Below are positions 5,795 through 38,203 of a DNA stretch of 64,000 bases, one piece after another (position 1 is the first letter of the stretch; every line of letters starts with the position of its first letter). The translations under genes were made by a program, and so were the position numbers. The notes under the pieces are model-generated. The model saw only the letters and a program-made list of their open reading frames with translations. It did no database searches and was not told the DNA's origin. The DNA is from Acidobacteriota bacterium (GTDB lineage Bacteria > Acidobacteriota > Blastocatellia > Pyrinomonadales > Pyrinomonadaceae): positions 124,001 through 188,000 of the forward strand of contig JAOAPY010000024.1 in NCBI GenBank assembly GCA_025463135.1, in the 5' to 3' direction.

Positions 5795-5799
5795 TGAGA

Positions 5800-5942: not shown

Positions 5943-5955
5943 GAGGTTCAGCAAA

Positions 5956-20583: not shown

Positions 20584-20943
20584 TCAGGGCTCCTGCTTTA
20601 CCTAATTTTTGGATGTGCTACCGAAAACTCGGAAGTCTCGGGTGTTGCGGACATTATGACGAAGTCCCTCGCGAAATGCTCCCGAAAACTGGCTGATAAT
20701 TTAACAATTCGACTGATGTTTTATCTATCAAAGTCGAAATCTGACTGTTAGAATGCAACAGTACTAAACGGACAAAGACCACTTATGGTTTCAAAGTAGT
20801 TTGAGCGTCTCTTTTTGTTCACTGCCGGCGTTCGTTCATTATCGCTGTGTCGGGGCACAGACTTCAGCCTGTGATTCACGACCGAGCATAAACCAAAACG
20901 TGGTCGTAAGTTATTAATCGTCATCTTAATTTTGGAGGCATCG
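20584..20943. other. Spacer with no recognised gene
   Basis: This 360-bp divergent spacer lies between the Oar-like receptor and a small membrane protein gene. It holds no convincing reading frame. It must contain both promoters, but I could not pick out hexamers with confidence. ACAGACTTCAGCCTGTG near 20860-20876 is a small palindrome. Confidence 0.5.
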
Positions 20944-21396
20944 ATGCTCTGGATTATTTTCGCTCTCGGCGCTGCGGTCGCCTGGGGGCTTTATGGGCCG
21001 GTACTGCACGGCGGTCAGGTTGCTCTCGGGAATAATCCCATGCGTGCCCTGCTCTGCGTGGGTGTCGCATATTTTTTGATTGGCGTCTTGGTGCCGGTTG
21101 CCAGTCTTTCCGCACAGGGCGGATTGCAGGGATTTACGATGAAGGGCTCCACAGCAGCAACGCTCGGCGGCGCACTTGGCGCGCTGGGGGCCATCTGCAT
21201 CATCTTCGCATTCAAGAGCGGCGGATTGCCGACATATGTGATGCCCCTGGTGTTTGCCGGCGCGCCCGTGGTGAACGTGCTGTTTTCAATCTGGATGCAT
21301 CCACCAAAGACAGCGCCTAATCCCCTGCTCTACATCGGCTTTGTGTTGGCCGCCGCAGGAGCCGGCATGGTCCTGTATTTTAAGCCTCAAGCATAG
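20944..21396 (+). CDS. Small multi-spanning membrane protein, DMT/EamA-like half transporter
   Basis: The ATG at 20944 has GGAGG at 20934-20938; a TTG four codons upstream is less likely because it overlaps the ribosome site. The protein of about 150 residues has four to five hydrophobic helices (MLWIIFALGAAVAWGLYGPV, ALLCVGVAYFLIGVLVPVA, AATLGGALGALGAICIIFAF, YVMPLVFAGAPVVNVLFSIW, LLYIGFVLAAAGAGMVLYF). The Gly-rich helices and short loops resemble half of a drug/metabolite (EamA-type) exporter, a fold known to work as dimers when split. Substrate and partner are unknown, and it stands alone. Confidence 0.7.
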   Translation: MLWIIFALGAAVAWGLYGPVLHGGQVALGNNPMRALLCVGVAYFLIGVLVPVASLSAQGGLQGFTMKGSTAATLGGALGALGAICIIFAFKSGGLPTYVMPLVFAGAPVVNVLFSIWMHPPKTAPNPLLYIGFVLAAAGAGMVLYFKPQA

Positions 21397-21425: not shown

Positions 21426-21556
21426 CATTTCTCATTTGACATTTCTCATTGGACCATTCGTTCGTGCGATCCTTCGTTCTCGCGTGCTGCCAATGTGACC
21501 AATAACGATCCGCGGGCAATGACAATTGAGAAATGCCAAACGACAAATGACAAATT
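21426..21556. repeat. Degenerate heptamer arrays in inverted orientation (CATTTCT / AGAAATG)
   Basis: CATTTCT, CATTTGA, CATTTCT and CATTGGA run in register from 21426. The complementary series (GACAATTGAGAAATGCC then AAACGACAAATGACAAATT) occupies about 21518-21556. The architecture is the same as the TCTTTGG arms at 5800-5942. It lies between the small membrane protein and a propeller gene and makes an apparent upstream extension of the latter's frame. Confidence 0.8.
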
Positions 21557-21614
21557 CCCCCGGTCTCCCCGACCACTTGAGATGACAAGACTCACTGTAC
21601 TAAGGAGATCGCCA

Positions 21615-22847
21615 ATGACTTTCAGCGTAAGAACCCTGACAACCGTCGCCTTCCTCGTTTGTTTCCTGACCATGGAAACCGCCGCGCAGACGACTGGTGA
21701 GTGGCCCCAGTGGCGCGGCCCGAATCGCGACGGCATATCCAAAGAGACAGGTCTGCTCAAACAATGGCCCGCGGATGGACCACCGCTGATTTGGAAAGCG
21801 AAAGGCGCCGGCCGGGGCTACTCAACACTCTCGGTGTCAGGCGGGCGTCTTTTTACCATGGGTCTCCGTGGCGATCGAGAATTCGTTATCGCTTTCGACG
21901 TGGCCACGGGCAAAGAGGTCTGGGCCACGGCGCATGGCAGCGCCTATCACGACAGTCGTGGCGATGGTCCGCGCGGAACTCCCACCGTCGACGGGAATAG
22001 TGTCTATGCCCTGGGTGGCAATGGCGATCTCTCTTGTCTTGATGCCAAAACCGGTAAGATTCTCTGGGCCATGAACGTGCTGCAGAAATTTGGCGGCCAC
22101 AATATTGGTTGGGGCATCAGCGAGTCACCCCTGGTGATCGGTGAAAAGATTCTTGTCAATGCCGGTGGCCCCGGCGCTTCGATAGTGGCGCTCAATAAGA
22201 AAGACGGCACTCTGATTTGGAAGAGCCAGAGCGACAAGGCCGGTTACTCGTCGGGTATGCCGGTGCAGATTGGCAACACCACGCAAGTGGTCTTCTTTAC
22301 CGATCAACGCGCTGTGGGTCTTGATCTAAAGGACGGAAAACTCTTCTGGGAGTATGCGCGCGCGGCTAACGATACCGCCAATGTGGCAACCCCCATCGTC
22401 CGCGGTAATCACGTATTCATCTCTTCGGACTATGGCACCGGCGCCGGCATGGTGGAGATCAAGGCGGATGGGAAGGCGCAGGAAGTCTATTTCACCAGGG
22501 AAATGCGGAATCACCACAGCAGCTCCGTGCTAATCGGCGATTATCTCTACGGTTTTTCAAGCAGCATCCTGACGGCGATGAAATTTGATACCGGCGAAGT
22601 AGCCTGGCGGGATCGCAGCGTGGGCAAAGGCTCCCTGGTCTTTGCTGACGGCAACCTTTATTGCCTGAGTGAGAACGGTGTCGTTGGCCTGGTCGAAGCT
22701 ACGCCCACGGGGTATCACGAGAAGGGCCGCTTTCGCATCCCGCAAGAATCGCTGCCCACCTGGACCCATCCCGTGGTCGCCGGTGGCCGCCTTTACCTGC
22801 GCGATCAGGACACAATCTACGCATTCGATGTGAAGGAAAAGAAGTAG
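21615..22847 (+). CDS. Secreted PQQ-like beta-propeller repeat protein (paralogue 7)
   Basis: I place the start at the ATG at 21615 (MTFSVRTLTTVAFLVCFLTM), which has AAGGAGAT upstream and a signal peptide. The longer open frame from 21495 is translated repeat. The mature protein opens with EWPQWRGPNRDGIS. Blades include IAFDVATGKEVWATAHG, SCLDAKTGKILWAMNVL, VALNKKDGTLIWKSQSD, VGLDLKDGKLFWEYARA and TAMKFDTGEVAWRDRSV. The C-terminus (TWTHPVVAGGRLYLRDQDTI) matches paralogues 5 and 6, suggesting this copy left the main cluster by duplication and movement. Neighbours give no functional hint. Confidence 0.88.
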   Translation: MTFSVRTLTTVAFLVCFLTMETAAQTTGEWPQWRGPNRDGISKETGLLKQWPADGPPLIWKAKGAGRGYSTLSVSGGRLFTMGLRGDREFVIAFDVATGKEVWATAHGSAYHDSRGDGPRGTPTVDGNSVYALGGNGDLSCLDAKTGKILWAMNVLQKFGGHNIGWGISESPLVIGEKILVNAGGPGASIVALNKKDGTLIWKSQSDKAGYSSGMPVQIGNTTQVVFFTDQRAVGLDLKDGKLFWEYARAANDTANVATPIVRGNHVFISSDYGTGAGMVEIKADGKAQEVYFTREMRNHHSSSVLIGDYLYGFSSSILTAMKFDTGEVAWRDRSVGKGSLVFADGNLYCLSENGVVGLVEATPTGYHEKGRFRIPQESLPTWTHPVVAGGRLYLRDQDTIYAFDVKEKK

Positions 22848-23979: not shown

Positions 23980-26900
23980 CTATTCGGCGCGCAACGATGC
24001 CAATAAGGGCGAGCACAAGGCCGCCCAGGTTGCCGCCACGGTCGCGACCAATCCCGATATCAATACCAACAGCAACAAAAAGCCCAGCGAAGCATTTGGT
24101 AACTGGCCACCACGTGCCAGGAAAATCGGAGCTATCGCGAGCGCGGCGGCGAACGACCCGGTTGCCAGGCCACTCAACAGCAGCAAAACGTTTTCAGCGA
24201 TCACCATAATAGTAAAGTGCGATGAGTTATATCCCACTGCACGCAGCAAGGCCAGTTCCTTGCGTCGCTCCAGGACATTGCGCAGCAACACCGCCGCCAT
24301 GCCGAGCGTGCCCAGCAGCAATCCCAGGCCACCGAGCATTTGGAACGTCGACAGATATGTGTTTTCAACTCGGTGAAAATTAGCCAGTCGCTCGGCGGTG
24401 GGCACCACATCAAAGCCAAAATCAGCAAGCCGATCCTCGAGAGCCAGACTGATGGCCGCTTGATCTTTTTCCGGGGCGTCGATCAGAAAGAAGCGATAAC
24501 CCTGCTCTTGCGGAAACAGTTTTAGAAAATTCTTTTCCGCCATTATGAGTTCGCTTTGAAAGATACTGTCAGCCAAAGCGCCGACAATGCGCAGTCGCAC
24601 AGGACCCTCACTACGGTTCAGGACAAACTCGTCGCCCATTTTCAGGTGCAGCACGTAGGTCAGCGAATTTGAGTCAGCTATCACGGGAACGACGCCGTTA
24701 CCCAGTTCGCGATTGAGCAGCAGCCAGGGATTGTCAGTCTCTTCGCGGTTACCTGGAATCGAGGTCTGAAAAGCAAAACGGTTGCTGCGAATGAACTGTT
24801 CGGTTGCCGCCAGAATCCGTGGACTGTGAGGCTGATAGAGATTCAAACAACTGGCATCGTCACCTGGGTGCAGACGAAAGCGCGTAATGCCGGCGCCTGC
24901 AAGGACGGCCGCGTTCTGGTCGCCCGCCAGATTCAAGGCCTCGCGGCCTTCGCGACTATTGGGATCGTGAATCAACGGCAGCAGCGATTCTGCCAACAGA
25001 GGAAAGCCTCCGCTGCCGGACTTCCTGTCCAGCGCGACACTATTCGTCTCGCGCCTGAACGCATCTACCGCCACGATGATGAACGTCGCCGAAGCAATCA
25101 AGGCGATGCACAACACGCTGCGCCCCGGACGATAGGTAGCGTTTCTGAATCCCAATCGCAGCACTGACAACCAACTATTGCCATGAATAGAATTCCTTCT
25201 CGCCCGCCGCAGCCATACCGATTGGAAGCAGAGCAAGGCGATTAGACACGCTGTTCCGCCGCCGAAGAATCCCGCCGTCTGTCCTAATAAATGAAACGAA
25301 GCCGCAGCCAGGAGAAGCAGAGTCAGCACGGCGAACGAAAAACCGACACGTACACTGGAGAAAAGACCGCCGCGGTTCTTCCGTGTCTCCGCGTCTCCGC
25401 GTCGCCTTTTTTGCGTGATCGTGTCTCCAACGCCGCTCGTCCCCATCAGCAGGCTGCGGGTCGATGACTGCTTCAAACGTCTCAAGGTCCACCAGACGCA
25501 TACCAGGGCCGCGATGACTCCACCTACTCCACCTGTCACAAGGGACCACAAAGACGGATGCAGTCTCAACGTGGTGGTGCCGACCGCTCCCACCCACCAG
25601 GTGCGCAGACCAAACATCATGAACTGGCCGTACGCAACCGCTCCGGCCAGACCAATCAGACTACCCGCGACGGCCAGCAGCGTGCCTTCCAAAACAAACA
25701 GCGAACGAATCCGCGCTGCCGGAAAACCTATGGCCTGCATGATGCCTATCTCACGCAGGCGTTGTTCAATGCCGAGTTTGAAGAAGAGGGCGGTTAGCAG
25801 CAGTGCCGACACAACCAGAAAAAAACTGAAGTAGAGAAAGTATTCGCCAAAGTCAGTAGCGCCGCGCGACGCCGCCAAACCCTGCGCCCGCGCGGGCAAG
25901 ATAACCAGCCCCATGCTCGCGGGATCCAATGTCGATGCCAGTTGGCCCGCATATCGATCCACGACCGCGTTTGCGTTCCCGGCGGGCGTGAGGCGCATTG
26001 AAGTAATCCTGCCAAAGCGCGACTTCCAGAGATCCTGTCCTACCTCGAGAGTAATAAAAGCCTTTGGCGTGGTGCGATATTGCTTCCAATAATCTTCATC
26101 CTGTTTTCTGATACGACCAAGGTCAACGGGAAAGGGCGGGTCCCAATCTGACATGCTGTCCGATTCGCTGATGCCGGGATAGTCAGGAATCAAATTCCTA
26201 TCGGCGGCCAGACCAGTAATCGGTACCACTGCGACCAGTTGAAATGCCGCGGTCCGGGTTTCAAGATGACCGTCCTCTTGCCAGACATAGTATTCGAGCG
26301 ATATTTGATCGCCGGCGCGCGCATTCAGTTCGCGTGCGGCCCATTCGTTTAGAACGATGGGCGGCTGCGCGGGCCGCTTAACGTTTGCTGCCGGCTCACC
26401 CTGTGGCGCTGGCGACTCGCTTCCCTTTAATAAGGAATGGAAGGTTGGCTCATCCAGCGCAGTCACCAGGGAATAAGGTACCGCTCGCCCACCGCTGCTG
26501 ATGCTGTTGGCAACGTAGGCGAATATCGTTGACGTCCGCATTGAAGATGCGGAAGCGACTGCGCGCGCCTTTTCCGCGAGCGAGTCATCAACCAGCGTAC
26601 TGCCACGCTCAAGCGAAATACTCTTCTGATTCGACACGAGGCGCAGTCTTACGTCGTAGTCGGCTAGCGATGCGGTGCGCCGCAGTATCTTCTCGATACC
26701 AGCCTGGCCCTCAACACCGGCGTTCGTCACCGACTGCTTCGAAATCAGGATCGTGTTGACCTGGTACGATTTCTCGAGTTCTTTTTGCAATAGCTTGAGC
26801 GGCACAAAGAGTGCCCGAACCGCAGTCTGCTGCGGCCGCGTGGAGAACTCTCCCAGATCTTCCGCGGAGATGATCTCTTTTATCGTAAGTCTCAGCGTGC

Positions 26901-27432
26901 GGCCCAGGTCTTCCTTGCGTCCGTACAAGGATTCGCGCGGTACGTTGGAAGGCTTTTCAATTCGCAAGAGTATTGAGTCGCCGAGGTGCGTGTTTAGTTC
27001 CCGCGCCAAACTATCGCTCAGGAAGACTTCTCGATTTTGTGGGGGTTGCTTCCCTTCTCGCCCGTGGAACTTCCAGAACCGTTCATCAACGCCGTAGACT
27101 CGCACTCCCCCGGCGCGAGCTCCGTTGGCTTCACTTACACTTCCCTCGAGCTCAATTAGTGGACAAGCGGCAGCAAATCCACTGCGGGCAAAGTCCGGTT
27201 GCTTTTCAATATCACTCGCAAGTTGCTCGCGGAAGAATCCAGTCGCTGAAATTACGAAATCGGTTTTCCCCAGCCGCTGCAGGAAGAGATCGCGCAAACT
27301 GGCCCGCACCGAATCTCCCACTAACAGGGCCCCAGCCAGTACGGCCACAGCGATTGCCACACCGAACACCACGGGCAGGTTCGTGCGCCAGTAATAGGCC
27401 AGGTTTCGTTTGACTAGTTGCGCGGTTTGCAT
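23980..27432 (-). CDS. ABC transporter permease, large FtsX/MacB type with two FtsX domains
   Basis: I place the start at the ATG at 27432 (MQTAQLVKRNLAYYWRTNLP), because residues encoded upstream are translated inverted repeat. The product has about 1150 residues. Its first helix (FGVAIAVAVLAGALLVGDSV) leads into a large periplasmic MacB-PCD-like region. FtsX helices lie around residues 545-690 (YFLYFSFFLVVSALLLTALF, REIGIMQAIGFPAARIRSLF). A second helix pair is followed by another periplasmic part and a second FtsX block at the C-terminus (TFQMLGGLGLLLGTLGMAAV, RRKELALLRAVGYNSSHFTI). Such permeases pair with LolD-like ATPases and act in lipid or lipoprotein release or mechanotransmission rather than import. 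The ATPase lies just upstream. Confidence 0.9.
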   Translation of the reverse strand: MQTAQLVKRNLAYYWRTNLPVVFGVAIAVAVLAGALLVGDSVRASLRDLFLQRLGKTDFVISATGFFREQLASDIEKQPDFARSGFAAACPLIELEGSVSEANGARAGGVRVYGVDERFWKFHGREGKQPPQNREVFLSDSLARELNTHLGDSILLRIEKPSNVPRESLYGRKEDLGRTLRLTIKEIISAEDLGEFSTRPQQTAVRALFVPLKLLQKELEKSYQVNTILISKQSVTNAGVEGQAGIEKILRRTASLADYDVRLRLVSNQKSISLERGSTLVDDSLAEKARAVASASSMRTSTIFAYVANSISSGGRAVPYSLVTALDEPTFHSLLKGSESPAPQGEPAANVKRPAQPPIVLNEWAARELNARAGDQISLEYYVWQEDGHLETRTAAFQLVAVVPITGLAADRNLIPDYPGISESDSMSDWDPPFPVDLGRIRKQDEDYWKQYRTTPKAFITLEVGQDLWKSRFGRITSMRLTPAGNANAVVDRYAGQLASTLDPASMGLVILPARAQGLAASRGATDFGEYFLYFSFFLVVSALLLTALFFKLGIEQRLREIGIMQAIGFPAARIRSLFVLEGTLLAVAGSLIGLAGAVAYGQFMMFGLRTWWVGAVGTTTLRLHPSLWSLVTGGVGGVIAALVCVWWTLRRLKQSSTRSLLMGTSGVGDTITQKRRRGDAETRKNRGGLFSSVRVGFSFAVLTLLLLAAASFHLLGQTAGFFGGGTACLIALLCFQSVWLRRARRNSIHGNSWLSVLRLGFRNATYRPGRSVLCIALIASATFIIVAVDAFRRETNSVALDRKSGSGGFPLLAESLLPLIHDPNSREGREALNLAGDQNAAVLAGAGITRFRLHPGDDASCLNLYQPHSPRILAATEQFIRSNRFAFQTSIPGNREETDNPWLLLNRELGNGVVPVIADSNSLTYVLHLKMGDEFVLNRSEGPVRLRIVGALADSIFQSELIMAEKNFLKLFPQEQGYRFFLIDAPEKDQAAISLALEDRLADFGFDVVPTAERLANFHRVENTYLSTFQMLGGLGLLLGTLGMAAVLLRNVLERRKELALLRAVGYNSSHFTIMVIAENVLLLLSGLATGSFAAALAIAPIFLARGGQLPNASLGFLLLLVLISGLVATVAATWAALCSPLLASLRAE

Positions 27433-27449
27433 TGAGACAAGTTCGGTAC

Positions 27450-27546
27450 AGGCGTTTAGAGTACCGCCTTCAGTCGGGCTCTTTCTCACCTAATCAAAAA
27501 GCCTGCTAAAGAAAAGGCCCAGCTGAAGGCGGTACTCTAAATACCT
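27450..27546. repeat. Inverted repeat, family D (GGCGTTTAGAGTACCGCCTTCAG), inside the ABC operon
   Basis: Left arm AGGCGTTTAGAGTACCGCC then TTCAG (27450-27473) pairs with CTGAAGGCGGTACTCTAAA then TACCT (27523-27546). The right arm contains the stop codon of the ATPase gene (27537-27539). The left arm lies just before the permease start. A second copy is at 31155-31234 in the same gene cluster. Confidence 0.92.
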
Positions 27547-28208
27547 GTCGCTCGCAGTTGTTGATCGATCACGTCATACCGGCGCGGAAAACGCGCGGCA
27601 AGTTCAGCATTGTGAGTAACCACCACCAGAATCGTCTGCTGTGCCTGGTGCAATTTCAACAGCAGAGAGGCCACAGCTTCCGCCGCGACATGATCCAGGT
27701 TGCCGGTTGGTTCGTCACATAACAGCAACTGTGGTTTCATGACCAGCGCCCGCGCCAACGCCACGCGTTGTTTCTCGCCGCCGGAAAGTTCGGCCGGACG
27801 ATGTTCAAGACGATCAATTAGCCCGACTTGCTCCACTAACTCGCGTGCACGTTTTTCGTAGTCATCCTTCGCCGCGGCAACCAGCGTCGGCGTCAAAACA
27901 TTTTCGATTACCGAGCATTGCGGCAGCAGGCAATGGTCCTGAAAGACAAAACCGATCTGCCGGTTTCGGAAGGCCGCCAGCTCTTTCTGTTTCAGTTGGA
28001 AAGGGTTCTGATTATCCAGGGTGACAGTGCCGCTCGTGGGCGGCTCCAGCGCGCCCATGATGTAGAGCAGCGTGCTTTTACCGCTTCCCGACGGACCCAT
28101 AATGGAAACCGCTTCGCCACGCGCCAGCGAAAGGGAAACGTCGCGAAGAATTTCGATCGTCCCGCTCGGCCCCGGATAACTCTTGGAAACGTTTTCGACC
28201 TTGAGCAC
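27537..28208 (-). CDS. ABC transporter ATP-binding protein, LolD/MacB type
   Basis: This 223-residue nucleotide-binding subunit has all core motifs: Walker [10 protein letters not shown] (about 39-47), a Q-loop in [15 protein letters not shown] (about 86-100), signature [15 protein letters not shown] (about 141-155), Walker [13 protein letters not shown] (about 161-172) and the switch His in [13 protein letters not shown] and LLPxxSVxENV mark the LolD/MacB/FtsE group that works with FtsX-type permeases. The stop codon lies within a family D repeat arm, so the final residues (ATGI) may have been set by repeat insertion. It precedes the permease gene by 104 bases and is probably co-transcribed with it. 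Confidence 0.95.
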
Positions 28209-28225
28209 TGAACCTCCAAAGCATC

Positions 28226-28360
28226 AGCCCACAGATTTACACTGATGACCACAGACGCAACTATTAGCGCGACGTCGACGTTCCTTAGTTCCTCGTAAAA
28301 CTTCTCCCGCCTTTGCGCTGATGTTCGGTCCAATCCGAGTAAGTCAGTGTTGGTCTGTGG
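28226..28360. repeat. Imperfect inverted repeat, family J (CCACAGATTTxCAC..GATGACCACAG)
   Basis: CAGCCCACAGATTTACACTG then ATGACCACAG (28226-28255) is partly complementary to TCAGTGTTGGTCTGTGGTCC (28343-28362). A related pair lies at 43335-43420. It fills the 158-bp gap between the glycosyltransferase and ABC ATPase genes. Confidence 0.65.
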
Positions 28361-28366
28361 TCCTAT

Positions 28367-29656
28367 TCAACTGCTCAGTACACTTTCGTAGGCTTCGAGC
28401 GCCCGGTCGGCCATCCGTGAAGCACTGTAGTGCTCGCGAACTTTGACCGCTCCAGTCGCGCCTAATTTCGCGGCGAGCGCCGGGTCACGATAGAGTTTCA
28501 GAAGCCCTTCGGCCACGCTTTGCGGATTGTCCGGCTCGACCAACAAGCCGCCGCCTGTCTTCTCAACGATTTCCGTGAAAGCCCCGCGTCGCGGCTGGAC
28601 CACGGGAACACCACAAGCCATCGCTTCGAGCAGAAAAATTCCCTTCGGCTCGTCGTAGGCGGCCGGTACGGAAAGCACATCGAGTCCCCGCAGAAAAAAA
28701 ATCTTCTCCTTGCGATCCAGCACACCGCGATAGCTAAACTCTGATTTGAGACCGGCCTTCGTCATCTCCTGCTCAATGTCGCCCAAATATTTCTGGTGTT
28801 CAGGGGCCATATAACCCGCCACTTCCAAACGTGCCTGAGGCAGATCACCACTCTTACGCAATATGCGGTAGGCCTCTGCCAGCACGTGCAGGCCTTTTTC
28901 CGGTGCGACGCGCGCGAAAAATCCAATAGTAAAAGGCCGCGAATCCTGACGACTCTTCTGCTCGTATCCCTGCAGGTTGATCCCCAGCGGCACTACACGG
29001 ATCTTTTCGCGCGGTATCGATAAATAGCCGGGCATGAATTCAGCGTAGTAATCGCTGACGGCGATGAAAGCATCGACATGTTTGACGTTAGCACGGATGA
29101 GATCGAGCGCTTCGCTCCGATAAGGCTCGAGTAACCCTTCGAGAAACAGATCCTCACCTTGCAGGGTGCAACACACCGGGCGGCCCAAAAGCTCCTTAAT
29201 CGGCTCAGCCAATGAAATCAGCAGCGTGTAAGGTAAGCTGACGATGTCAGGCGGTGGTTCATGCCTGAGCCAGTCGAGCATTTTAGTAATTTCTTTTTTT
29301 TGAAAGCCACCTGTTCCCTTCAACATCGAAACCGTCATTTCACCGAGCATCTTCGGGCTCGTTGAAATCGAATGCCGCGCAGCCATCTTCAACATGAACG
29401 TCGAGTCCCATAAGCCATCCAGCCAACTCGGTGTCGCGCGGAACATCGGCACATACTGCTCCAGGTAAACGCTGATGCCGCCAAAGAAGACTTTTTCTTT
29501 ACTAACGTTGGGTTCGTCGGTTCTGGTGGGTGTATACACCGGCATGAGGATGACGTCGTGGCCGCGCGCGAGTAACTCAGTCGCCAGCGCGTTGTCACGC
29601 AGGCAGCTGCCGCAATACATCTGGCCCGCCCCACCGGTGAGATAGAGTATCTTCAT
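28367..29656 (-). CDS. Glycosyltransferase family 4
   Basis: I place the start at the ATG at 29656 (MKILYLTGGAGQMYCGSCLR), four bases after the upstream stop codon and at the natural first beta strand of a GT-B fold. The protein has 429 residues. The acceptor domain has ELLARGHDVILMPVYTPT. The donor domain starts near residue 235 (FTIGFFARVAPEKGLHVLAE) and has the E-x7-E motif in EPKGIFLLEAMACGVPVV and the nucleotide-sugar loop AFTEIVEKTGGGLLVEPDN. These are retaining transferases that move a sugar from a nucleotide sugar to a lipid, glycan or small molecule. Its close coupling to the LuxC-like gene suggests an acyl-derived acceptor; that is inferred. Confidence 0.9.
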   Translation of the reverse strand: MKILYLTGGAGQMYCGSCLRDNALATELLARGHDVILMPVYTPTRTDEPNVSKEKVFFGGISVYLEQYVPMFRATPSWLDGLWDSTFMLKMAARHSISTSPKMLGEMTVSMLKGTGGFQKKEITKMLDWLRHEPPPDIVSLPYTLLISLAEPIKELLGRPVCCTLQGEDLFLEGLLEPYRSEALDLIRANVKHVDAFIAVSDYYAEFMPGYLSIPREKIRVVPLGINLQGYEQKSRQDSRPFTIGFFARVAPEKGLHVLAEAYRILRKSGDLPQARLEVAGYMAPEHQKYLGDIEQEMTKAGLKSEFSYRGVLDRKEKIFFLRGLDVLSVPAAYDEPKGIFLLEAMACGVPVVQPRRGAFTEIVEKTGGGLLVEPDNPQSVAEGLLKLYRDPALAAKLGATGAVKVREHYSASRMADRALEAYESVLSS

Positions 29657-29660
29657 CCGA

Positions 29661-31088
29661 TCATCCGGCCAGGGCCTGCTGAAAGGCGCGACGTCCGTAC
29701 AGGTGTTCAAAAAGATTGCCTTCGTGCGGCTGGTCCCAACTAAGGTGGTTCGTGGCCAACGGACCGATGTTCAAGCGATCAACGTTAGGTGCGGCCGCGA
29801 GTTTTTGAAGCAATTTGGGATTCGAAGTGATCGCCGTCACCACTAAACTCGGGCCCAGCGCCTCAGGAATCTGCTCCTGCTTGCAGTTAACTACACTGGC
29901 AAAAGGAAAAAGAAACTCTTTGTTCGCCAGCGAGTGTTCAGGACCATCGCATAGCACGATCGTTGGCAAAAGATAGGAACAGCCCTCCCAAATCGTCAGG
30001 CGTTCGCCGACGCGATACTCGGCCGTCACCTCGGTGGCGCCGGATTCGCCGAGACCCTGATCGATTAGTTGAGAAATCCGCGACGCTACATTCGCATCCG
30101 TAAATGGAGCGAGCTGAGCTTCCGGATCTTCGCTCGCGCGAGGTGCGATCTGTGCCAGGCGCCGGGCCAGAGCCGCGGCAATTTCGCGCCCGTGGGCCGG
30201 CACCCAAACACTTGAAGCATTCACGCACGAGCGCCCGCCATTCTCGACAATCGAAGCGACCATCACGTCCAGATATTTTTCCCAGTCGTCGATGCAGTCT
30301 TCACCGATAACCAACTTGCTGTAGCCGGGGCCATGAATCTCGAGGCGTGGATCGTTTTCCCAGAGGCTCGCAGTTGTAGTATCTCCGAAGATCATACCGC
30401 GCCCGCAGCTGCGCAGAATTTCCGCGCCGCCGGCATGATCGGCGGGATAGAAACTAAACGCCGCGCGCGGCGCTCCGGCGCGAATCAACGCCTGAATAAT
30501 TCTGTATGGCGTCCAGGGCTCGGCGCTCCCCGGTTTGAGCACCAGCGGTATTTTCAGCGGCACCGCCGGAATCCATAGTGAATGCACGCCCGGTGAATTA
30601 TTCGGCAGCACCACTCCCAACGATCTTGTGCGTGGAAAGAAACTCAGCGAATGCCCATTCACTTCGCCAAAGCCGCGATCCAATACATCCCAAGCCAGAT
30701 TTCTGGTCAAGCCATTAAGCACGTTTCCCATTTCGGCGAGCATGCTTTGAATCTTTTGCATGTTTCGCCGTCCCAGAACATGAGGCAGACCCGTGGTAGC
30801 CGAAACCTGCCGCACATAATCTTCCGGCGCTTGAAGATCGTCGCCGAGTGGCAGCGTGTCGTTGATGAAGTGATGGGCTGCGCGAGCGCAAATCTCAACC
30901 AACTCAGCAATGGAAAACCCGGCGAGCGCCGCCCGCCCGGTTTCCTGATTGCGCAGATCGCGACGTATCAAGCCAACATTGGCCTGACTGATCTCGACAA
31001 ACAATTCGCGCGTCCGGTGATGCGGCACACGGGCGAGATCCAGACTCTTGTAGGGTTCACCCTGGCGCAAGATTGGAATATGAAGCAT
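29661..31088 (-). CDS. Aldehyde dehydrogenase superfamily protein, LuxC-like acyl-CoA/acyl-protein reductase
   Basis: The protein has 475 residues, the usual LuxC size. The N-terminal 120 residues precede an ALDH-like core with SLGVVLPNNSPGVHSLWIPA (about 170-190), IPLVLKPGSAEPWTPYRII (cofactor domain, with the KPG motif) and the catalytic region IVENGGRSCVNASSVWVPAH, where the Cys is the expected nucleophile (about 288). DRLNIGPLATNHLSWDQPHE near the end fits an NAD(P) site. LuxC-type enzymes reduce activated fatty acyl groups to aldehydes. Four bases separate its stop from the glycosyltransferase start, and a LuxE-like ligase is encoded upstream. A generic aldehyde dehydrogenase remains possible. 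Confidence 0.72.
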   Translation of the reverse strand: MLHIPILRQGEPYKSLDLARVPHHRTRELFVEISQANVGLIRRDLRNQETGRAALAGFSIAELVEICARAAHHFINDTLPLGDDLQAPEDYVRQVSATTGLPHVLGRRNMQKIQSMLAEMGNVLNGLTRNLAWDVLDRGFGEVNGHSLSFFPRTRSLGVVLPNNSPGVHSLWIPAVPLKIPLVLKPGSAEPWTPYRIIQALIRAGAPRAAFSFYPADHAGGAEILRSCGRGMIFGDTTTASLWENDPRLEIHGPGYSKLVIGEDCIDDWEKYLDVMVASIVENGGRSCVNASSVWVPAHGREIAAALARRLAQIAPRASEDPEAQLAPFTDANVASRISQLIDQGLGESGATEVTAEYRVGERLTIWEGCSYLLPTIVLCDGPEHSLANKEFLFPFASVVNCKQEQIPEALGPSLVVTAITSNPKLLQKLAAAPNVDRLNIGPLATNHLSWDQPHEGNLFEHLYGRRAFQQALAG

Positions 31089-31093
31089 GAAGG

Positions 31094-31142
31094 TCTTTGG
31101 TCTTTGGTCTTTGGTCTTTGGTCTTTGGTCTTTGGTCTTTGG
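31094..31142. repeat. Tandem heptanucleotide array (TCTTTGG), seven units
   Basis: Seven perfect copies of TCTTTGG run from 31094 to 31142, starting six bases from the start codon of the LuxC-like gene (on its upstream side). The same unit occurs at 5800-5834. Copies this pure suggest recent expansion by slippage. No complementary CCAAAGA arm is seen nearby. Confidence 0.95.
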
Positions 31143-31154
31143 CCAGCGCGGTTA

Positions 31155-31234
31155 CTGGCGTTTAGAGTACCGCCTTCAGGCGGGTTTTTCTCCCGCTCAA
31201 ACTACCCGACTGAAGTCGGTACTCTAAACACCTG
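31155..31234. repeat. Inverted repeat, family D
   Basis: CTGGCGTTTAGAGTACCGCC then TTCAGGCGGG (31155-31184) pairs with CCCGACTGAAGTCGGTAC then TCTAAACACCTG (31205-31234), with a loop of 20 bases. It is the second copy of the repeat at 27450-27546, in the same gene cluster. Confidence 0.9.
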
Positions 31235-31249
31235 TAATCCGTCACAACT

Positions 31250-31277
31250 CTTTGCTCATTGCTCTTTGCCATTTGCC
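31250..31277. repeat. Short degenerate heptamer array at a gene end
   Basis: CTTTGCT, CATTGCT, CTTTGCC and ATTTGCC lie in 7-bp register immediately after the stop codon of the LuxE-like gene (on its 3' side). They resemble the degenerate CATTTCT array at 21426. Confidence 0.6.
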
Positions 31278-31278
31278 C

Positions 31279-32367
31279 TCAGTACACCCCTTCCACCACG
31301 GTCGTATTCAACTTCGAAAACGGACGGACATTGCGCACGCCATCCCAGGGATAAAGTTCGCAGGGTGGTTCCCTTTCGGCTTCGTCACGCTCCAGAAACC
31401 GCGGCATAAAGAATTCTTTGGTCAGAGTTGTCAGACGCACCCGGCCCGTCTCACCATAGTCGACCACCTGTTCAGTGTTTTCCGGATCGACCACTTCAAT
31501 CATGGCCCGCGGATGAGGTGGATAATAGATGATCGCGTAGTTGTCGGCCGCTGCGCGCGGCTTGTGCACCGCCAGCCCCATCAAGGTATTGCCATAGGTA
31601 GCCGCGAAGTAGGCGCCTTCCAATAATTCTTCGACGGCGAAGCGATGAAATTGCGGCGTCATCTCGGTGCCGCCACAAAACACTCCGGTGATGCCCAGTT
31701 TCTTGAGCGATACCTTTTCGCACAACGCTTCCAATAACTTTGGTGTCGTGAAAAGGCATTTGATGTTGTCGTGAGCGCGTAACTGCGTCAGTCCCTGCTC
31801 GATTACATGCTGCTTGTATTGCTCGGCCATCTTTGCCTGGCCCATCTTGATCAGCTTGATCACCCAGCGCGGATCCAGATCAACCATAAAACAGATGCCG
31901 CCGCGATACTGGGCCAGGTGTTCTACCGCCAGGCGCAGCCGCCGCGGCCCGGTTGGACCCAGTGACAACCAATCGGCGTCGCGCGGGAAAAACTCGTCGG
32001 GCAGCGTGTCACTGAACGCTTCATAGTCGATGCGAAAGTCTTCAATGCTGATACGCGATTTTGGCACGCCGGTGCTGCCCCCGGTCTCGAAAGTATAAAT
32101 CGGACGACCCGCGTAGCCCTTCGGCACCCAACGTCGCACATCGCGGCCACGTAGCCATTCATCTTCAAAAAAGCCGAAGCGATCGAGATCCATGTAAGTT
32201 TGAATCTCTTTACGCGGATCCCAATCAAGCCGGGCGGCATAGTCCAACCAGAAAGGACAGCCGGTGTCCGGATCAAAGTGCCATTGCACAACTTCACGCA
32301 CCCAGGCATCCAGTGACTCTCGCGATTTCGTTATGTTCTTTTCCAGAGTAATTTCCGTAGCTGACAT
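31279..32367 (-). CDS. LuxE-like acyl ligase (ANL/PaaK-related adenylating enzyme, short form)
   Basis: This 362-residue protein has the adenylate-forming P-loop in YTFETGGSTGVPKSRISIED (about residues 92-110). Later motifs include KCLFTTPKLLEALCEK, GVFCGGTEMTPQFHRFAVEE and AATYGNTLMG (the YG-T adenylate motif, about 255). It lacks the C-terminal lid domain of full-length CoA ligases. Its length matches LuxE acyl-protein synthetase, which activates a fatty acid as acyl-AMP and passes it to LuxC. The C-terminus (KLNTTVVEGVY) has no Cys like the acyl-accepting one of LuxE. It leads the cluster that continues with the LuxC-like reductase, 190 bases downstream. Relatives are sometimes labelled phenazine biosynthesis proteins, so the substrate is uncertain. 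Confidence 0.72.
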   Translation of the reverse strand: MSATEITLEKNITKSRESLDAWVREVVQWHFDPDTGCPFWLDYAARLDWDPRKEIQTYMDLDRFGFFEDEWLRGRDVRRWVPKGYAGRPIYTFETGGSTGVPKSRISIEDFRIDYEAFSDTLPDEFFPRDADWLSLGPTGPRRLRLAVEHLAQYRGGICFMVDLDPRWVIKLIKMGQAKMAEQYKQHVIEQGLTQLRAHDNIKCLFTTPKLLEALCEKVSLKKLGITGVFCGGTEMTPQFHRFAVEELLEGAYFAATYGNTLMGLAVHKPRAAADNYAIIYYPPHPRAMIEVVDPENTEQVVDYGETGRVRLTTLTKEFFMPRFLERDEAEREPPCELYPWDGVRNVRPFSKLNTTVVEGVY

Positions 32368-32580: not shown

Positions 32581-33282
32581 TTACGAAAGAAGCTCAGTCA
32601 CGATTGCATTCACGTGAATTTGACTGGTATCCAAAAAAACAATGCCCGCGTCTTGGACCGCTTCCGCCGTCAGAATCAAGGGTAGTTCCGTCCCGCCCAG
32701 AATCACACCATCGATACCTTCATGTGCTTTCATACGCGCAACGATCTGCAGCAATCGAGCGCGCGTCCCAGGTAGAAAGGTTCCGAGTATCAACTCTCGC
32801 ATGTACTTTTCATGAATATAGTTCTGTTCATCTGCTTCCGGCAGACAGATCGTGATTCCCTTTCTGGAAAAGACCTCAGGATAAAAACGTCCACGCATCG
32901 TGAAGCGCGTGCCCAACAGAGCGAGCCGCCGCAACCCCTGCGCCTCAGCGGCAGCGCAGGCGGCCTCGACTATGCTGATGAGAGGAATCGCTGACCTACT
33001 CGAGATTTCCTCAAACACCAGGTGCGGAGTGTTTGAGGAAAGAACTCCAAAGTCAGCACCGGCGCGCGCCAGCTTTTCTACCTCAGCGACTATATATTCG
33101 GTGAGAGCGACCAGGTCATTTCCCTCGACGAAGGCAATCACCTTCGTCAGATTAATACTATTGATGATGATCGAGGGATAACTTCCATCCTGCTGCGCCT
33201 TCCTATAGGCGTCGATGAGCAGACGGTAGTAGGCAATAGTTGACTCGGGTGCAATGCCGCCGATTATGCCAACAGTTTTCAT
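32581..33282 (-). CDS. Aspartate/glutamate racemase family protein lacking both usual catalytic cysteines
   Basis: This 233-residue protein starts MKTVGIIGGIAPESTIAYYR, the classic Asp/Glu racemase opening. The two catalytic positions differ: the first block reads LSSNTPHLVF where many members have CNTxH, and the second reads VILGGTELPLIL where GCTE is usual. The lineage motifs LLGTRFTMRGRFY, NYIHEKYMRELI and SIVEAACAAAE are intact, so the fold should be preserved. Two-base racemisation needs both thiols, so the protein may have another activity or be a binding protein. It stands alone, with the MacB-type permease gene upstream on the same strand. Confidence 0.82.
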   Translation of the reverse strand: MKTVGIIGGIAPESTIAYYRLLIDAYRKAQQDGSYPSIIINSINLTKVIAFVEGNDLVALTEYIVAEVEKLARAGADFGVLSSNTPHLVFEEISSRSAIPLISIVEAACAAAEAQGLRRLALLGTRFTMRGRFYPEVFSRKGITICLPEADEQNYIHEKYMRELILGTFLPGTRARLLQIVARMKAHEGIDGVILGGTELPLILTAEAVQDAGIVFLDTSQIHVNAIVTELLS

Positions 33283-33372
33283 AGCGAATTCCTTGCCGCA
33301 TCGGAACTCTTATTGCAGCGAGCGTGTCTCTTCGGCGTGGAATCACGGGAGGACGCCCGTGCCACACTGGTT

Positions 33373-35793
33373 CTAACTATTTCGCAACGCCACCATCGGA
33401 TCCACCTTCGACGCCCGGCGCGCGGGCAGATAGCTGGCCAACAGGGCGACAATAGTAAGCAGCAACGATATGCCTGCAAACGTAAGCGGGTCGACTGCGC
33501 TTACTCCAAAAAGCAAGCTGGCCATAACTCGAGTTAACGCAAAGGCCGACAGCAATCCTACGCCGACGCCGATAGCCGCTAATTTTGCGCCGTCACGCAA
33601 TACCATCTGCAAAACGTCTACGGCTCTCGCTCCCATGGCGAGGCGAATCCCGATTTCGTGCGTGCGCTGTGTCACTAAATAAGCCATCACGCCGTAAATT
33701 CCCACGGCCGCCAGGAGCGCCGCCAACACCGCGAACAGGACCAGCAGCGACATACTGAGCCGGCGCTGCGCGAGCGAGTTGGAAACAATCTCTTCCATCG
33801 TCTGCACCTGCGAGATGGGAATGTTTTTGTCCAGCGATCGCAGCGTGCCGCGTATGCCGGGGACCAGACTTTTCGGATCGCCATTGGTGCGCACCACCAG
33901 AGAAATGTTGCGCAGGGCATTCGGATAAGGGTTCTGCACCATGGGGACGTACATTGCGGGATTCGTGTCGGCATCCAGAGACGCCAGCTTTACGTCGCCG
34001 ACCACGCCGATGATCTCCCGCCAACGGTTCGGCTCGGGATAGACCTGAATGCGCTCGCCCAGTGGATGTCCATCGGGAAAGAAGCGTGCGGCCATCGTCT
34101 TATTAATGATGACAACATCCGGGGCTGCTTTCATTTCTCGATCGGTAAAGTCGCGCCCCTCGAACACCGGGATTCCCATGCTACGAAAGTAGTCCTGGCT
34201 GATGGCCCGATAATCGACAGTCGGTGCGTTTTCAGGAGGCACAGGTCTGCTCTGAATCGTAAAGCCGGTCGACGCATTAAAGCCCACCATCGGCACGCGA
34301 ATGGCGCCCGCCGCAGTTTCAACGCCCGGCACGGTCCTGATTTCGGTGAGCAGCCGATCATAAAACGCAGCTTGTTTCGGGATGTCGGGATAACTCTCCG
34401 TAGGCAGTCCAATGCCAATCGTCAACACGCCTTTGGGATTGAAGCCGGGCGCCACCCGGTTCAGGGAAAAGAAACTTCTCAGCATTAGCCCTGCCGCCAC
34501 CAGCAAGACCAACGCAATCGCCACTTCCGATATCACCATCAAGCTGAGCAGTCTCTGATGCACAACACTTGCGGTCATACCCCGCCTGCCTTCTCTCAGC
34601 GCGTTGGTCGTTTGCTTGCTCGAGCGCAAGGCCGGTATTAGTCCGAACAAAACGCCGGTAACCAGCGAGACCACGGCGGTGAAGCCCAGCACTCGAAGAT
34701 TGATTCCAATTTCAGCAGCGCGCGGAATGCTATTGGCACTGATGCCGACCAGGGCCGGCACGCCCACTAACGCCACCAGCAACCCCAATGTGCCACCCAC
34801 TAAACTCAACAATACGCTTTCGATAATCATTTGCCGGACCAACTGCAGTCGCGTGGCGCCCAACGCGGCACGAATCGCAAATTCGGTGCGCCGCCCCGCC
34901 GCTCGTGCCAACAGGAGGTTTGCGACGTTGGCGCAGGCGATTAGCAGAACGCAACCGACCGCCGCCAACAGCATTATGAGTGCCGGCCGCACGGGGCCAA
35001 CGACCTGATCGTGAAGCGGCAAGACGTAATAGCCGGCGCCCGTATTCTCAATGGGATACTGCTGAGCGAGGCGGACACCAAGGGCATCCATGTCCGCGCG
35101 CGCGGCGGCGAGTGTTATGCCAGGCTTCAGTCTGCCAATCAGGCGCAGGAAAGCCTGACCGCGCAGAATTTCTTTTGGTTGAAATACCAGAGGGACATAG
35201 ACCTTCGTTTCCGGATTGGGAAAATAAATACCGGGGGGCAGTACGCCGACAATCGTGCAGCTCTTACCGTCGACAGTAAGCTGACGACCAATCACGCCCT
35301 GGTCCGCGCCATAGCGCTGCTGCCAGAGGCTGTGACCAATCATCACGACCGGCCCGGCTCCAGGCTGATCTTCTCCACTCAGGAAATCACGACCGATTAA
35401 CGGCTGAACTTTGAGGAGCGAGAAGAGGTTAGCCGAAACCCGTGCACCGCCGGTGCGCTCAGGCTGATCTCCATCGGTAAGAATCATTTGCTGGGTTCTG
35501 AGCGCCGCAATCTGCTCAAACACTCGGTTCTGCTCTTTCAAGTCAATGAGGTTCGGCACCGACTCAGGCAGTTGATCTGTTTTCGTCGCCAGGCTGGTTT
35601 TCCAGATCGTCACTAACTCGTTCACATTTCCATAAGGCAATGGCGCCAGTAGCACCGCATTCACCACGCTGAATATCGCCGTGTTGAAGCCGATGCCCAG
35701 CGCCAGCGTGACCAGCGCCACGACCGTGAATAATGGCCGCTTGCATAAACCCCGAGCTCCATAGCGAATTTCCTGTAGTAAGTTGTCAATCAT
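33373..35793 (-). CDS. MacB/FtsX-type ABC permease of the acidobacterial duplicated type (ADOP-like)
   Basis: This 806-residue protein opens with [20 protein letters not shown], the usual start of this family. The first helix ([20 protein letters not shown]) leads into a MacB-type periplasmic domain (about 50-240). FtsX helices follow at about 270-430 ([40 protein letters not shown]). A second periplasmic domain and a C-terminal FtsX block complete it ([39 protein letters not shown], ending [15 protein letters not shown]). No ATPase gene is adjacent, as is common for these orphan permeases. Acidobacterial genomes carry many copies; substrates are unknown. Confidence 0.92.
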
Positions 35794-35865
35794 TCTTTCC
35801 TCCTCTGTTCGAGTGCCGGCCTTCGCTCACGTTTGAACCTTCAATTCCAATGCGTCCAGTTTGTC

Positions 35866-36096
35866 TCAGCGAAAGTGTTCCGACATCTCAAAGCAATCTC
35901 CCGGCGCCAGCAAAACGCCGTGCACCGCGAGTGCGCGACAAAACGCGCGCGCGTCGCTGCCATCCCTGAGCCAGGGAAAACTCGTTAGCCCGCCGCGCGG
36001 ACGTACCCAGCCAAGGTCATCGTCGTGTTCTGTGGTGAATTGATCGAGCAGTGCAAGCTTAGTTTCCAATTCCGTTTCAGACAGTTTTATCTGCAT
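35866..36096 (-). pseudogene. C-terminal remnant of a class I/II aminotransferase
   Basis: A 76-codon frame reads LGWVRPRGGLTSFPWLRDG, ARAFCRALAVHGVLLAPGDC and FEMSEHFR, then stops. This matches the small-domain end of PLP aminotransferases, in which HFR is normally followed by an LGFG-type strand. Both the large domain with its Schiff-base Lys and the final strand are missing. The frame overlaps the end of the intact class V aminotransferase gene by 20 bases, so transcription may continue into it. I read it as the scar of a deletion; a retained small protein is less likely. Confidence 0.65.
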
Positions 36097-37288
36097 TTAC
36101 CCTCGCCAGACATTCACAAAATCGCTCGACCTCTTCTTCAGTGTTGTAGTAGTGGACCGAAGCTCGAACCAGGTCCTTGATCCCGCGTTCGCTCAAATCC
36201 AGACGACTATATTCTTCCAACGAAACGCTGACGTTGATCCTGAACTCTGCGAGTCGGCGCTGTACCTCTGCTGAACCTGGACCCTCAACATTGAAGGTGA
36301 CGATCCCGCACCGCTCTGCCCCCTGGTCGTGCACGGTGACGAAATCCAGCTCTCGCAATCGCCCGCGCAATTGTTCGGCAAGTCTTTTTATGCGCGCCCA
36401 TGTCACCTCGACATTCCAGTCGAGCGCATAGTCAATGGCCACACCCAATCCCGCTTTGCCCGCGAAATACATCTCCCAATTTTCAAAACGACGCGCATCC
36501 GGCGAGATCTCATATGCGTCTTTCGTGACCCAGCGGGCGGCGCGCATATCAAGGAACGGCGGCTCAAGTTGTTCGATAAGCTCGCGCCGCACGTACAGGA
36601 ATCCGATGCCGCGGGGCCCGCGCAGGAACTTGCGGGCGGTCGTGGTGAGGATGTCACAGCCGATCTGCTGCACATCAATCGGCATTTGGCCCACCGACTG
36701 GCAAGCGTCCAGCAAATACAGCACGCCTGCTTCGCGAGCGACCTGGCCGATCTGAGCGGCGGGATTCACCAGGCCGCCGTGCGTGGGCACGTGAGTGATG
36801 CTGATTAGCTTTACGCGTTCGTCGATCATCCGGCGCAGAGCTTCGACTGAAGTCTGGCCTTGTTCGTCGTTGGGGATAACTTCGATTTTGGCGCCGGTGC
36901 GTCGCGCCATCTGCAGATAAGCGATGTAGTTGCTGATGTATTCGGCCTTGGCAGTGAGAATGCGATCGCCGGGTGCGAAGGGAATGGAATAGAACGCCAT
37001 GTCCCAGGCGCGAGTGGCATTCTCAACCACTGCGATTTCGCCGGAAGTGCAATTGATAAGCCGCGCGGCCGCGTCATAAACATGCTCGACAATCTCGAGC
37101 TGGCGTTCCTTCGCTTCATAGCCGCCGATGGCTGCTTCCAATTTCAAATGATTGACAACCGCGTCGAGTACTGGTTGCGGCATCAATGATGCACCGGCGT
37201 TATTGAAATGCAGGACACTCTCGCAAGCCGGCGTGTCCCGACGCGCTCGTGCTAAATCAAAGGTCGCTGCCTCAGGGGTGTTATGCAT
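36077..37288 (-). CDS. PLP-dependent aminotransferase, class V (cysteine desulfurase-like fold)
   Basis: This 403-residue fold-type I enzyme has NNAGASLMPQPVLDAVVNHL near the N-terminus, a cofactor-stacking region (VVENATRAWDMAFYSIPFAP), the PLP-binding Asp in LYLLDACQSVGQMPIDV (about 195-200) and the Schiff-base Lys in TTTARKFLRGPRGIGFLYV (about 230). The C-terminal domain ends RASVHYYNTEEEVERFCECL. No Cys-containing active loop like that of IscS is visible, so it may be an epimerase, lyase or aminotransferase rather than a desulfurase. It precedes the aminotransferase remnant on the same strand; the upstream gap contains no clear signal. Confidence 0.87.
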   Translation of the reverse strand: MHNTPEAATFDLARARRDTPACESVLHFNNAGASLMPQPVLDAVVNHLKLEAAIGGYEAKERQLEIVEHVYDAAARLINCTSGEIAVVENATRAWDMAFYSIPFAPGDRILTAKAEYISNYIAYLQMARRTGAKIEVIPNDEQGQTSVEALRRMIDERVKLISITHVPTHGGLVNPAAQIGQVAREAGVLYLLDACQSVGQMPIDVQQIGCDILTTTARKFLRGPRGIGFLYVRRELIEQLEPPFLDMRAARWVTKDAYEISPDARRFENWEMYFAGKAGLGVAIDYALDWNVEVTWARIKRLAEQLRGRLRELDFVTVHDQGAERCGIVTFNVEGPGSAEVQRRLAEFRINVSVSLEEYSRLDLSERGIKDLVRASVHYYNTEEEVERFCECLARVNADKTV

Positions 37289-37415
37289 GCTCTCTCTGTT
37301 TCCGTGAATCTTGAGCTCCGGCGCCCGCCCTTTCTTACTGTTGTTTTTTCCTCTTCTTGCTTAGCGTGCTTTTGCGCCGTTACGGGAAATCTCTGATGTC
37401 TTCTCATTTCCCTTG

Positions 37416-38201
37416 TTACGCAAACAGCTTTCGTTCAAGAATTGTTCGCAGGTTTCTTTCGTGAAAGATTCTTTCGAACGGCGTTGGCTCAACTTCCGGG
37501 GGCATGAAGTTTTCCAGAGGTGTTTTCAGAAAAGACTCGGCCGTGCCCGAAGCGTTTGAGGCAAACGCCCGATCCCGCAGGCGCTCAAGATAAAAAAGCG
37601 CATTGCCGATCGCCGCGGTGCTGCGAACATCGCCATGGCTGGAAATCAGTCTGCTGCGCGGCGCCTGCTGCAATCGCCCAAGAGCTGTGAAAAAACACTC
37701 GGGCGTTGAGTACATCAGATAGGCGATGTTCCCCACCACAGTATCGCCAACCATCAAGAGATCAGCTTGGGGAATGTCTATGGTCAGCGTGCTCGAGGTA
37801 TGACCGGGATTGTGAGACACGTCGAGCGTAAAGCGTCCCCAACGGATCGTGATGCCTTCCTTCACCAAAATGTCCGGCTCGACAAAGTGCGCCTCTTCTT
37901 CCGCGGAGCGATACTGTTCCGAAGTGAAGGTGTCGGCATAGTTTTCGTGAGCAATTACCGAAGCCCTGGGAAACAGTTTCAACGCCGCGAGGTGATCGCT
38001 GAAGTAATGGGTGCTGATAATAAAGCGCACTTCTTTTCCGAGCTTCTGTTCCACGAAATTCTTCAATAGCACAGCGTCGCTGTGACTGCCGACGGCATCA
38101 ACCAACAAGGCCTCGTTCTGAGCAATGAAGATCGTCGAGTTGGAGCGATAGGTCTCGCCAACAAACAGATAGAGATCCTCTTCAATCTGATTTACAAGCA
38201 C
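37416..38201 (-). CDS. MBL-fold metallo-hydrolase with altered metal motif
   Basis: I choose the GTG at 38201 (reads MLVNQIEEDLYLFVGET), because AAGGA lies 6-7 bases upstream and the longer frame would overlap the preceding gene. The product has 261 residues. The metal site reads ISTHYFSDHLAAL, so the HxHxDH motif becomes HYFSDH and its second His is Phe. The other ligands look intact: NPGHTSST (His), LMVGDTVVGNIAYLM (Asp) and SSHGDV (His). One metal site may be weakened. Members act as hydrolases or lactamases on varied substrates. It follows the cyclotransferase-like gene by 2 bases, so the two are one transcription unit. Confidence 0.83.
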   Translation of the reverse strand: MLVNQIEEDLYLFVGETYRSNSTIFIAQNEALLVDAVGSHSDAVLLKNFVEQKLGKEVRFIISTHYFSDHLAALKLFPRASVIAHENYADTFTSEQYRSAEEEAHFVEPDILVKEGITIRWGRFTLDVSHNPGHTSSTLTIDIPQADLLMVGDTVVGNIAYLMYSTPECFFTALGRLQQAPRSRLISSHGDVRSTAAIGNALFYLERLRDRAFASNASGTAESFLKTPLENFMPPEVEPTPFERIFHERNLRTILERKLFA

Positions 38202-38203
38202 GA

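Follow-up and report, generated by a model that had tools for sequence, protein, structure and literature searches.

Reduction of a carboxylic acid to its aldehyde by way of the acyl-AMP, the logic followed by LuxE and LuxC, has also been described for paired enzymes that use aromatic acids. In grixazone biosynthesis of Streptomyces griseus, GriC and GriD constitute such a two-component carboxylic acid reductase for 3-amino-4-hydroxybenzoate, with GriC forming the acyl-AMP and GriD reducing it to 3-amino-4-hydroxybenzaldehyde (PMC10179220), and EhpF to EhpO, of the D-alanylgriseoluteic acid pathway in Pantoea agglomerans, act on phenazine-1,6-dicarboxylate (PMC3175449). Among exporters, the Escherichia coli YbbAP-TesA system extracts hydrophobic compounds from the inner membrane, its permease YbbP having ten helices with large domains between transmembrane helices (TM) 1 and 2 and between TM7 and TM8 (PMC12646458). 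Here we analyze a locus in a 6.48 Mb acidobacterial genome (Pyrinomonadaceae; GCA_025463135.1) where relatives of EhpF and EhpG are encoded together with a GT4 glycosyltransferase and a YbbAP-like exporter. The whole stretch studied, hereafter the window, comprises 64 000 nucleotides (positions 124001–188000 of contig JAOAPY010000024.1, here C7), and we propose, with evenly poised confidence, that the locus contributes to a biosynthetic pathway whose genes are dispersed yet inherited together.

Each of these systems resembles one part of the locus. EhpF and EhpG share with it a homologous ligase (31% identity) with an adjacent aldehyde dehydrogenase (ALDH; 26%), an adenylation domain standing alone without a C-terminal domain, and the acid-to-aldehyde logic, but they belong to a phenazine operon with an MFS transporter and with no GT4, type VII ABC exporter or propeller. 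GriC and GriD, likened to our pair through their published description and not through a comparison of their sequences, operate in a different pathway context. YbbAP-TesA has in common with the locus a 10-helix permease with two large periplasmic domains, a duplicated FtsX unit and a separate small ATPase, whereas the permease of the locus is larger (1150 against 804 residues) and linked to genes for a GT4 and a reductase. For LuxC and LuxE the likeness is a functional analogy only, their sequence models giving no match.

Ligase and reductase

Five genes follow one another on the minus strand of the window, in the order ligase, ALDH-type reductase, GT4, ATPase and permease (Table 1), as the first-pass annotation of this DNA had listed them. 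That annotation took the first two products to be LuxE-like and LuxC-like, an assignment that we had to replace. The Pfam LuxE model did not match the ligase, which instead aligned over its whole length with the EhpF structures 3l2k and 3hgu (phmmer E 4.5e-44, residues 20–362 to 21–366), its only strong match among solved structures. Pfam scanning at E 0.01 gave AMP-binding (PF00501) alone, below its cut-off, and no C-terminal domain. The STGxP loop was conserved in 20/20 ligases. Homologues 66–88% identical to the ligase were found across five phyla, and against the 66% or more of this subfamily EhpF had only 29–31% identity to the ligase, with Streptomyces relatives annotated as arylcarboxylate reductase at 32–39%.

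The reductase, having its closest named relatives in bins of Pyrinomonadaceae and other Acidobacteriota, matched Aldedh (PF00171) only in the Pfam scan, and thus the general ALDH family instead of LuxC; the single gene with a LuxC match (PF05893) in this genome lies on another contig (C11) and is different from the locus reductase. The locus reductase did match its closest characterized counterpart, the ALDH found in the EhpG position next to an ehpF homologue in Pantoea phenazine plasmids (tblastn E 3e-28, in a small database), as well as the ALDH partners of EhpF homologues in Streptomyces and Halalkalicoccus, and adjacency of ligase and ALDH was also seen in Streptomyces and haloarchaeal plasmids. 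A GR[SG]C motif with the nucleophilic Cys (Cys288) was kept in 32/32 aligned reductases and ELGG in 0/32. ELGG carries the general base of oxidizing ALDHs, and from that chemistry its absence would favour reduction over oxidation. The predicted model of the reductase had an ALDH fold (Z 34.8, TM-score about 0.75 to ALDHs), with ordinary ALDHs only among the matches listed, and was uninformative with regard to LuxC.

Because of the homology to EhpF and EhpG and the chemistry of GriC and GriD, we place the pair among two-component reductases of aryl carboxylates, for which it is a candidate with a probably aromatic substrate. Membership of the pair in the LuxC and LuxE families was considered and rejected, as neither Pfam model matched either protein. 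The earlier logic of acid to acyl-AMP to aldehyde thereby stands, while the lipid substrate that it implied is unlikely, because the pair matches EhpF and EhpG and neither LuxE nor LuxC, and the nearest characterized relatives use aromatic acids. No LuxA- or LuxB-type gene turned up among the families scanned, in line with the first reading that a luciferase was lacking.

Gene order and the larger cluster

Gene order was counted by tblastn around close ALDH relatives, a few of the loci representing the same genome twice. At 66 of 90 loci the ligase, encoded on the same strand, lay directly upstream of the ALDH. Where at least 6 kb were available downstream of the ALDH (54 loci), ALDH, GT4, ATPase and permease occurred in order within 6.5 kb at 36 and all five genes at 34; the latter, all in Acidobacteriota, answer in the affirmative the question of conservation that had been raised in the first-pass annotation. 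Median identity was highest for the ligase (76%), followed by ATPase (65%), ALDH (61%), GT4 (58%) and permease (48%), and the pairwise distances of ligase, ALDH and GT4 correlated at r 0.77–0.83, a value that includes shared genome ancestry, against a permutation maximum of 0.18.

In Planctomycetota and other phyla a longer order recurs: two PQQ-like propellers, an SSF symporter, ligase, ALDH, an iron-containing alcohol dehydrogenase and a third propeller, then a HemN-like radical-SAM protein, a small protein, a halogenase-like flavoenzyme and the GT4, and finally a 4HBT thioesterase, a PaaK-like ligase, the ATPase and the permease. The set was also found in KSB1, Calditrichota and Poribacteria. 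The window too holds the alcohol dehydrogenase, propellers, radical-SAM protein and flavoenzyme of this cluster, in dispersed form: the run propeller–propeller–alcohol dehydrogenase–propeller at its left edge is the canonical order minus ligase and ALDH, which sit about 30 kb away. The unit of five genes first proposed is therefore real and ordered but incomplete, five further members lying elsewhere in the window (Table 1). Of the two propellers called PQQa and PQQb, PQQa immediately precedes PQQb in cluster loci from both Planctomycetota and Acidobacteriota. A small EamA-like membrane protein, itself with no Pfam match, may belong to the set as well, having a counterpart between the thioesterase and PaaK in the planctomycete cluster L173/L218 and lying near the run in six related loci (L and G numbers are our handles for loci and genomes).

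Some observations on these loci stand apart. At L144–L150, in several planctomycetes, only ligase and ALDH are together and the radical-SAM gene is distant; one of these, L149, has a large polyketide-synthase-like gene (L149:2-4045) about 1.7 kb from the pair. Two copies of the ligase subfamily occur in some genomes, namely at L035 (G044), L138/L139 (G532) and L156/L157 (G546), and in G044 both copies adjoin the same GT4.

Co-inheritance

Presence of the ligase subfamily was scored at >580 bits, well separated from a single relative that scored 284; none of the co-occurrence counts given here is corrected for phylogeny. Of 396 Acidobacteriota genomes, 76 had the ligase and 64 the radical-SAM subfamily, with 62 having both, 14 the ligase alone, 2 the radical-SAM protein alone and 318 neither (Fisher p 5e-56). 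In Planctomycetota the radical-SAM subfamily was present in 40/40 ligase-positive and 0/40 ligase-negative genomes, and this held with the genes megabases apart, as in G493, G474 and G585, where the distant radical-SAM gene was seen to adjoin a chorismate-lyase-like gene.

Comparing 40 ligase-positive with 40 ligase-negative Acidobacteriota, the most constant partner was the secreted propeller PQQb (40/40 against 1/40), followed by the GT4 subfamily (38/40 against 1/40) and the halogenase-like flavoenzyme, here HAL (>480 bits; 32/40 against 0/40). The lone negative genome with PQQb (G112) has the GT4 as well, and HAL was absent in 7/7 tested ligase-positive genomes lacking the radical-SAM protein. 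The set thus has a core of ligase, ALDH, GT4, propeller and, in most cases, exporter, and nested within it an accessory part made up of radical-SAM protein and flavoenzyme.

Exporter and tailoring enzymes

The ATPase matched the NCBIfam models LolD (245 bits) and YbbA (196 bits), both under the equivalog cut-off. The hydropathy profile of the permease showed ten hydrophobic segments, TM1 and TM2 being separated by a large domain and TM7 and TM8 by another, and the predicted model of the protein (pLDDT 82.5) had YbbP (9ge6) as the best solved match (Z 22.5, root-mean-square deviation 6.6, 710 residues aligned), with a BceAB structure within 1 Z of it. On the basis of this model we regard the permease as a YbbP-like type VII ABC transporter, and the LolD-type ATPase and FtsX permease of the earlier description are borne out by the ABC_tran, LolD/YbbA and FtsX/MacB_PCD matches. 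No TesA-like hydrolase was seen in the five-gene run or in the neighbourhoods read, the genome itself not having been searched for one. In one planctomycete the GT4 and the ABC ATPase are fused into a single protein of 666 residues (L223:14934-16934), and this fusion, together with the conserved order, agrees with the coupling of glycosyltransferase and exporter suggested before.

For the radical-SAM protein, NCBIfam gave HutW (192 bits) and HemN (186 bits), both below cut-off; CxxxCxxC was present in 18/18 homologues, with PF04055 and PF06969 in the window protein. HAL homologues kept both WxWxIP and the FAD-binding GxGxxG (13/13 each). The enzyme is predicted to be a halogenase or a monooxygenase, the latter being equally possible because its CmlS match (NCBIfam, 191 bits) is far under the equivalog cut-off.

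Candidate substrate

A protein of 172–217 residues with no Pfam match was found in 28/40 ligase-positive against 0/40 ligase-negative Planctomycetota. Its profile weakly matched 2nwi (E 0.0026), which we take to be a DUF98 chorismate-lyase-like protein, and it was co-linear with E. coli UbiC (hhalign P 0.0018, at a probability of only 15%). Taken together with the kinship to EhpF and GriC, this weak match points to a hydroxybenzoate-like acid.

Other features of the window

The start codon of the GT4 is ATG 29656, four bases past the reductase stop, in agreement with the first description. The permease most likely starts at ATG 27432, which homologues fit better, and not at the GTG 27489 of the open reading frame list, because that codon falls inside a palindromic repeat. 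The window contains exactly two copies of this palindromic element (TTTAGAGTACCGCCTTCAG with its reverse complement), at 27455–27541 and 31161–31228, each in a gap of the five-gene run, whereas chance would give none; the element is possibly mobile, of small size, or REP-like. Tandem CCAAAGA repeats (31092–31150) stand immediately upstream of the reductase start. Five further PQQ-like propeller genes are found at 5794–7311, 7442–8773, 9046–10599, 11092–12339 and 21495–22847, several of them back to back. Genes for a racemase, an ADOP permease, an aminotransferase and a metallo-beta-lactamase-fold protein upstream of the ligase (32581–38243) were excluded from the set, as they are not kept beside the run in relatives.

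Table 1. Members of the gene set in the window, with positions counted from its first nucleotide
Feature	Position	Strand	Evidence
Ligase, EhpF/GriC-like adenylating enzyme without ANL C-terminal domain, 362 aa	31279-32367	-	PDB match EhpF; conserved STGxP loop
ALDH, EhpG/GriD-like reductase, 475 aa, Cys288, no ELGG motif	29661-31088	-	Pfam Aldedh
GT4 glycosyltransferase, subfamily with YCGSCLRDN-type N-terminus	28367-29656	-	Pfam Glycos_transf_1/GT4
LolD/YbbA-type ATPase	27537-28208	-	Pfam ABC_tran
YbbP-like 10-helix type VII ABC permease (by model)	23980-27432	-	FtsX x2 + MacB_PCD
Iron-containing alcohol dehydrogenase, cut by window edge	1-661 (entire gene C7:123513-124661, 382 aa)	-	52% to the cluster enzyme of L142
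PQQb, PQQ-like beta-propeller, N-terminal signal sequence	799-2334	-	Pfam PQQ_2
PQQa, larger PQQ-like beta-propeller, signal sequence	2454-4643	-	Pfam PQQ_2
HemN/HutW-like radical-SAM protein	14346-15689	+	CxxxCxxC, PF04055, HemN_C PF06969
HAL, flavin-dependent halogenase/monooxygenase-like enzyme	15697-17052	+	Pfam Trp_halogenase, WxWxIP
EamA-like small membrane protein, tentative member	20932-21396	+	Similar protein in planctomycete cluster L173/L218

Discussion

From the observed family assignments, gene order, GT4–ATPase fusion and co-inheritance we propose a route that is conditional in its substrate, in every reaction and their order, in the direction of transport and in the role of the propeller. 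The EhpF-like ligase would adenylate a carboxylic acid that is most likely an aromatic one resembling hydroxybenzoate, and pass the acyl-AMP to the EhpG-like ALDH, which would reduce it with NAD(P)H to the aldehyde, and the iron-containing alcohol dehydrogenase could then give the alcohol. Where present, the radical-SAM protein and the halogenase-like flavoenzyme may decorate the ring. The GT4 would attach a sugar, the ATPase and YbbP-like permease would move the glycoside from or across the inner membrane, and the secreted PQQ-like propeller may bind or act on the product outside the cytoplasm. That the product is a secreted, glycosylated and reduced aromatic metabolite has, in our judgment, an even chance of being correct.

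Several points weigh against this proposal. We infer the identity of the substrate, and the chorismate-lyase-like protein was searched for in the window's own genome and not found there, so that for this genome kinship with EhpF and EhpG is all that would argue for an aromatic acid. The GT4 and exporter are away from the ligase in many Planctomycetota, the radical-SAM protein is missing from 14 ligase-positive Acidobacteriota and HAL from at least seven, and many of the positives come from a single genus (g104), in counts that are uncorrected for phylogeny.

A fatty or other lipid acid could instead undergo LuxCE-like reduction to a fatty aldehyde or alcohol, which would then receive a sugar and be exported in the form of a glycolipid. 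In favour are the hydrophobic compounds handled by YbbAP (PMC12646458) and the acyl-AMP-to-aldehyde logic shared with LuxE and LuxC; the absent LuxE and LuxC matches, the aromatic acids used by the nearest characterized relatives of both enzymes, and the fact that neither ketosynthase nor acyl carrier protein recurred in the neighbourhoods read nevertheless make this unlikely. We find it distinctly improbable that ligase and ALDH act in the breakdown or detoxification of an aromatic acid taken up from outside, with the GT4 and exporter disposing of excess. An SSF symporter, the importer under that explanation, does adjoin the ligase in 29 loci and directly precedes it in Halalkalicoccus, but ring-cleavage or beta-oxidation genes were not recurrent in the clusters read, ATP-driven acid reduction is costly for catabolism, and the presence of radical-SAM, halogenase-like and chorismate-lyase-like genes speaks for biosynthesis.

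PQQb, the most constant partner, carries a signal sequence and in several phyla shares operons with the biosynthetic genes. This could also mean that the product is a small aromatic or quinonoid molecule, which is exported to the periplasm and serves the co-inherited propellers there as cofactor or ligand. NCBIfam acido_non_PQQ, which PQQa and PQQb match weakly, indeed describes quinoprotein-like acidobacterial propellers empty of PQQ. PQQ_2 propellers are, however, numerous in these genomes and can also have a structural role, as in BamB; we identified no catalytic residue, and a glycosylated redox cofactor would be unusual, so that we hold this explanation to be very doubtful; if true, it would mean a new periplasmic cofactor system for a widespread class of secreted propellers in Acidobacteriota and Planctomycetota. 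The exporter might, finally, be a YbbAP system with a housekeeping role of its own that just happens to lie beside the reductase and glycosyltransferase genes, as could be suspected from L060, L070, L080 and L086, which have no exporter nearby. The same position and order in 34 Acidobacteriota loci, the adjacency to the set in Planctomycetota (L157, L155 and L139) and the GT4–ATPase fusion leave that with very little probability.

The proposed biosynthesis of an exported aromatic glycoside draws on known individual enzyme families; what is new is their combination, their strict co-inheritance and the secreted propeller as constant partner. In the open-licence papers covered by our literature search no description of the combined gene set was found, and the initial view that the pathway is not a described system holds. 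An engineered pathway to gastrodin reportedly joins a chorismate lyase, a carboxylic acid reductase, an alcohol dehydrogenase and a glucosyltransferase, the same succession as proposed here for the planctomycete version; unlike the latter it was engineered from unrelated genes, and we know of no native bacterial counterpart.

The set is inherited by about a fifth of the sampled Acidobacteriota and a quarter of the sampled Planctomycetota, and is thus likely to matter to little-studied soil and aquatic bacteria, in which its genes bear generic family names only. A comparison of metabolomes between cultured strains that carry the set and others that lack it should reveal its product, and because cytoplasmic tailoring enzymes are so strictly co-inherited with a secreted propeller, there is a direct handle on the function of at least one class of the many PQQ-like propellers in these phyla.

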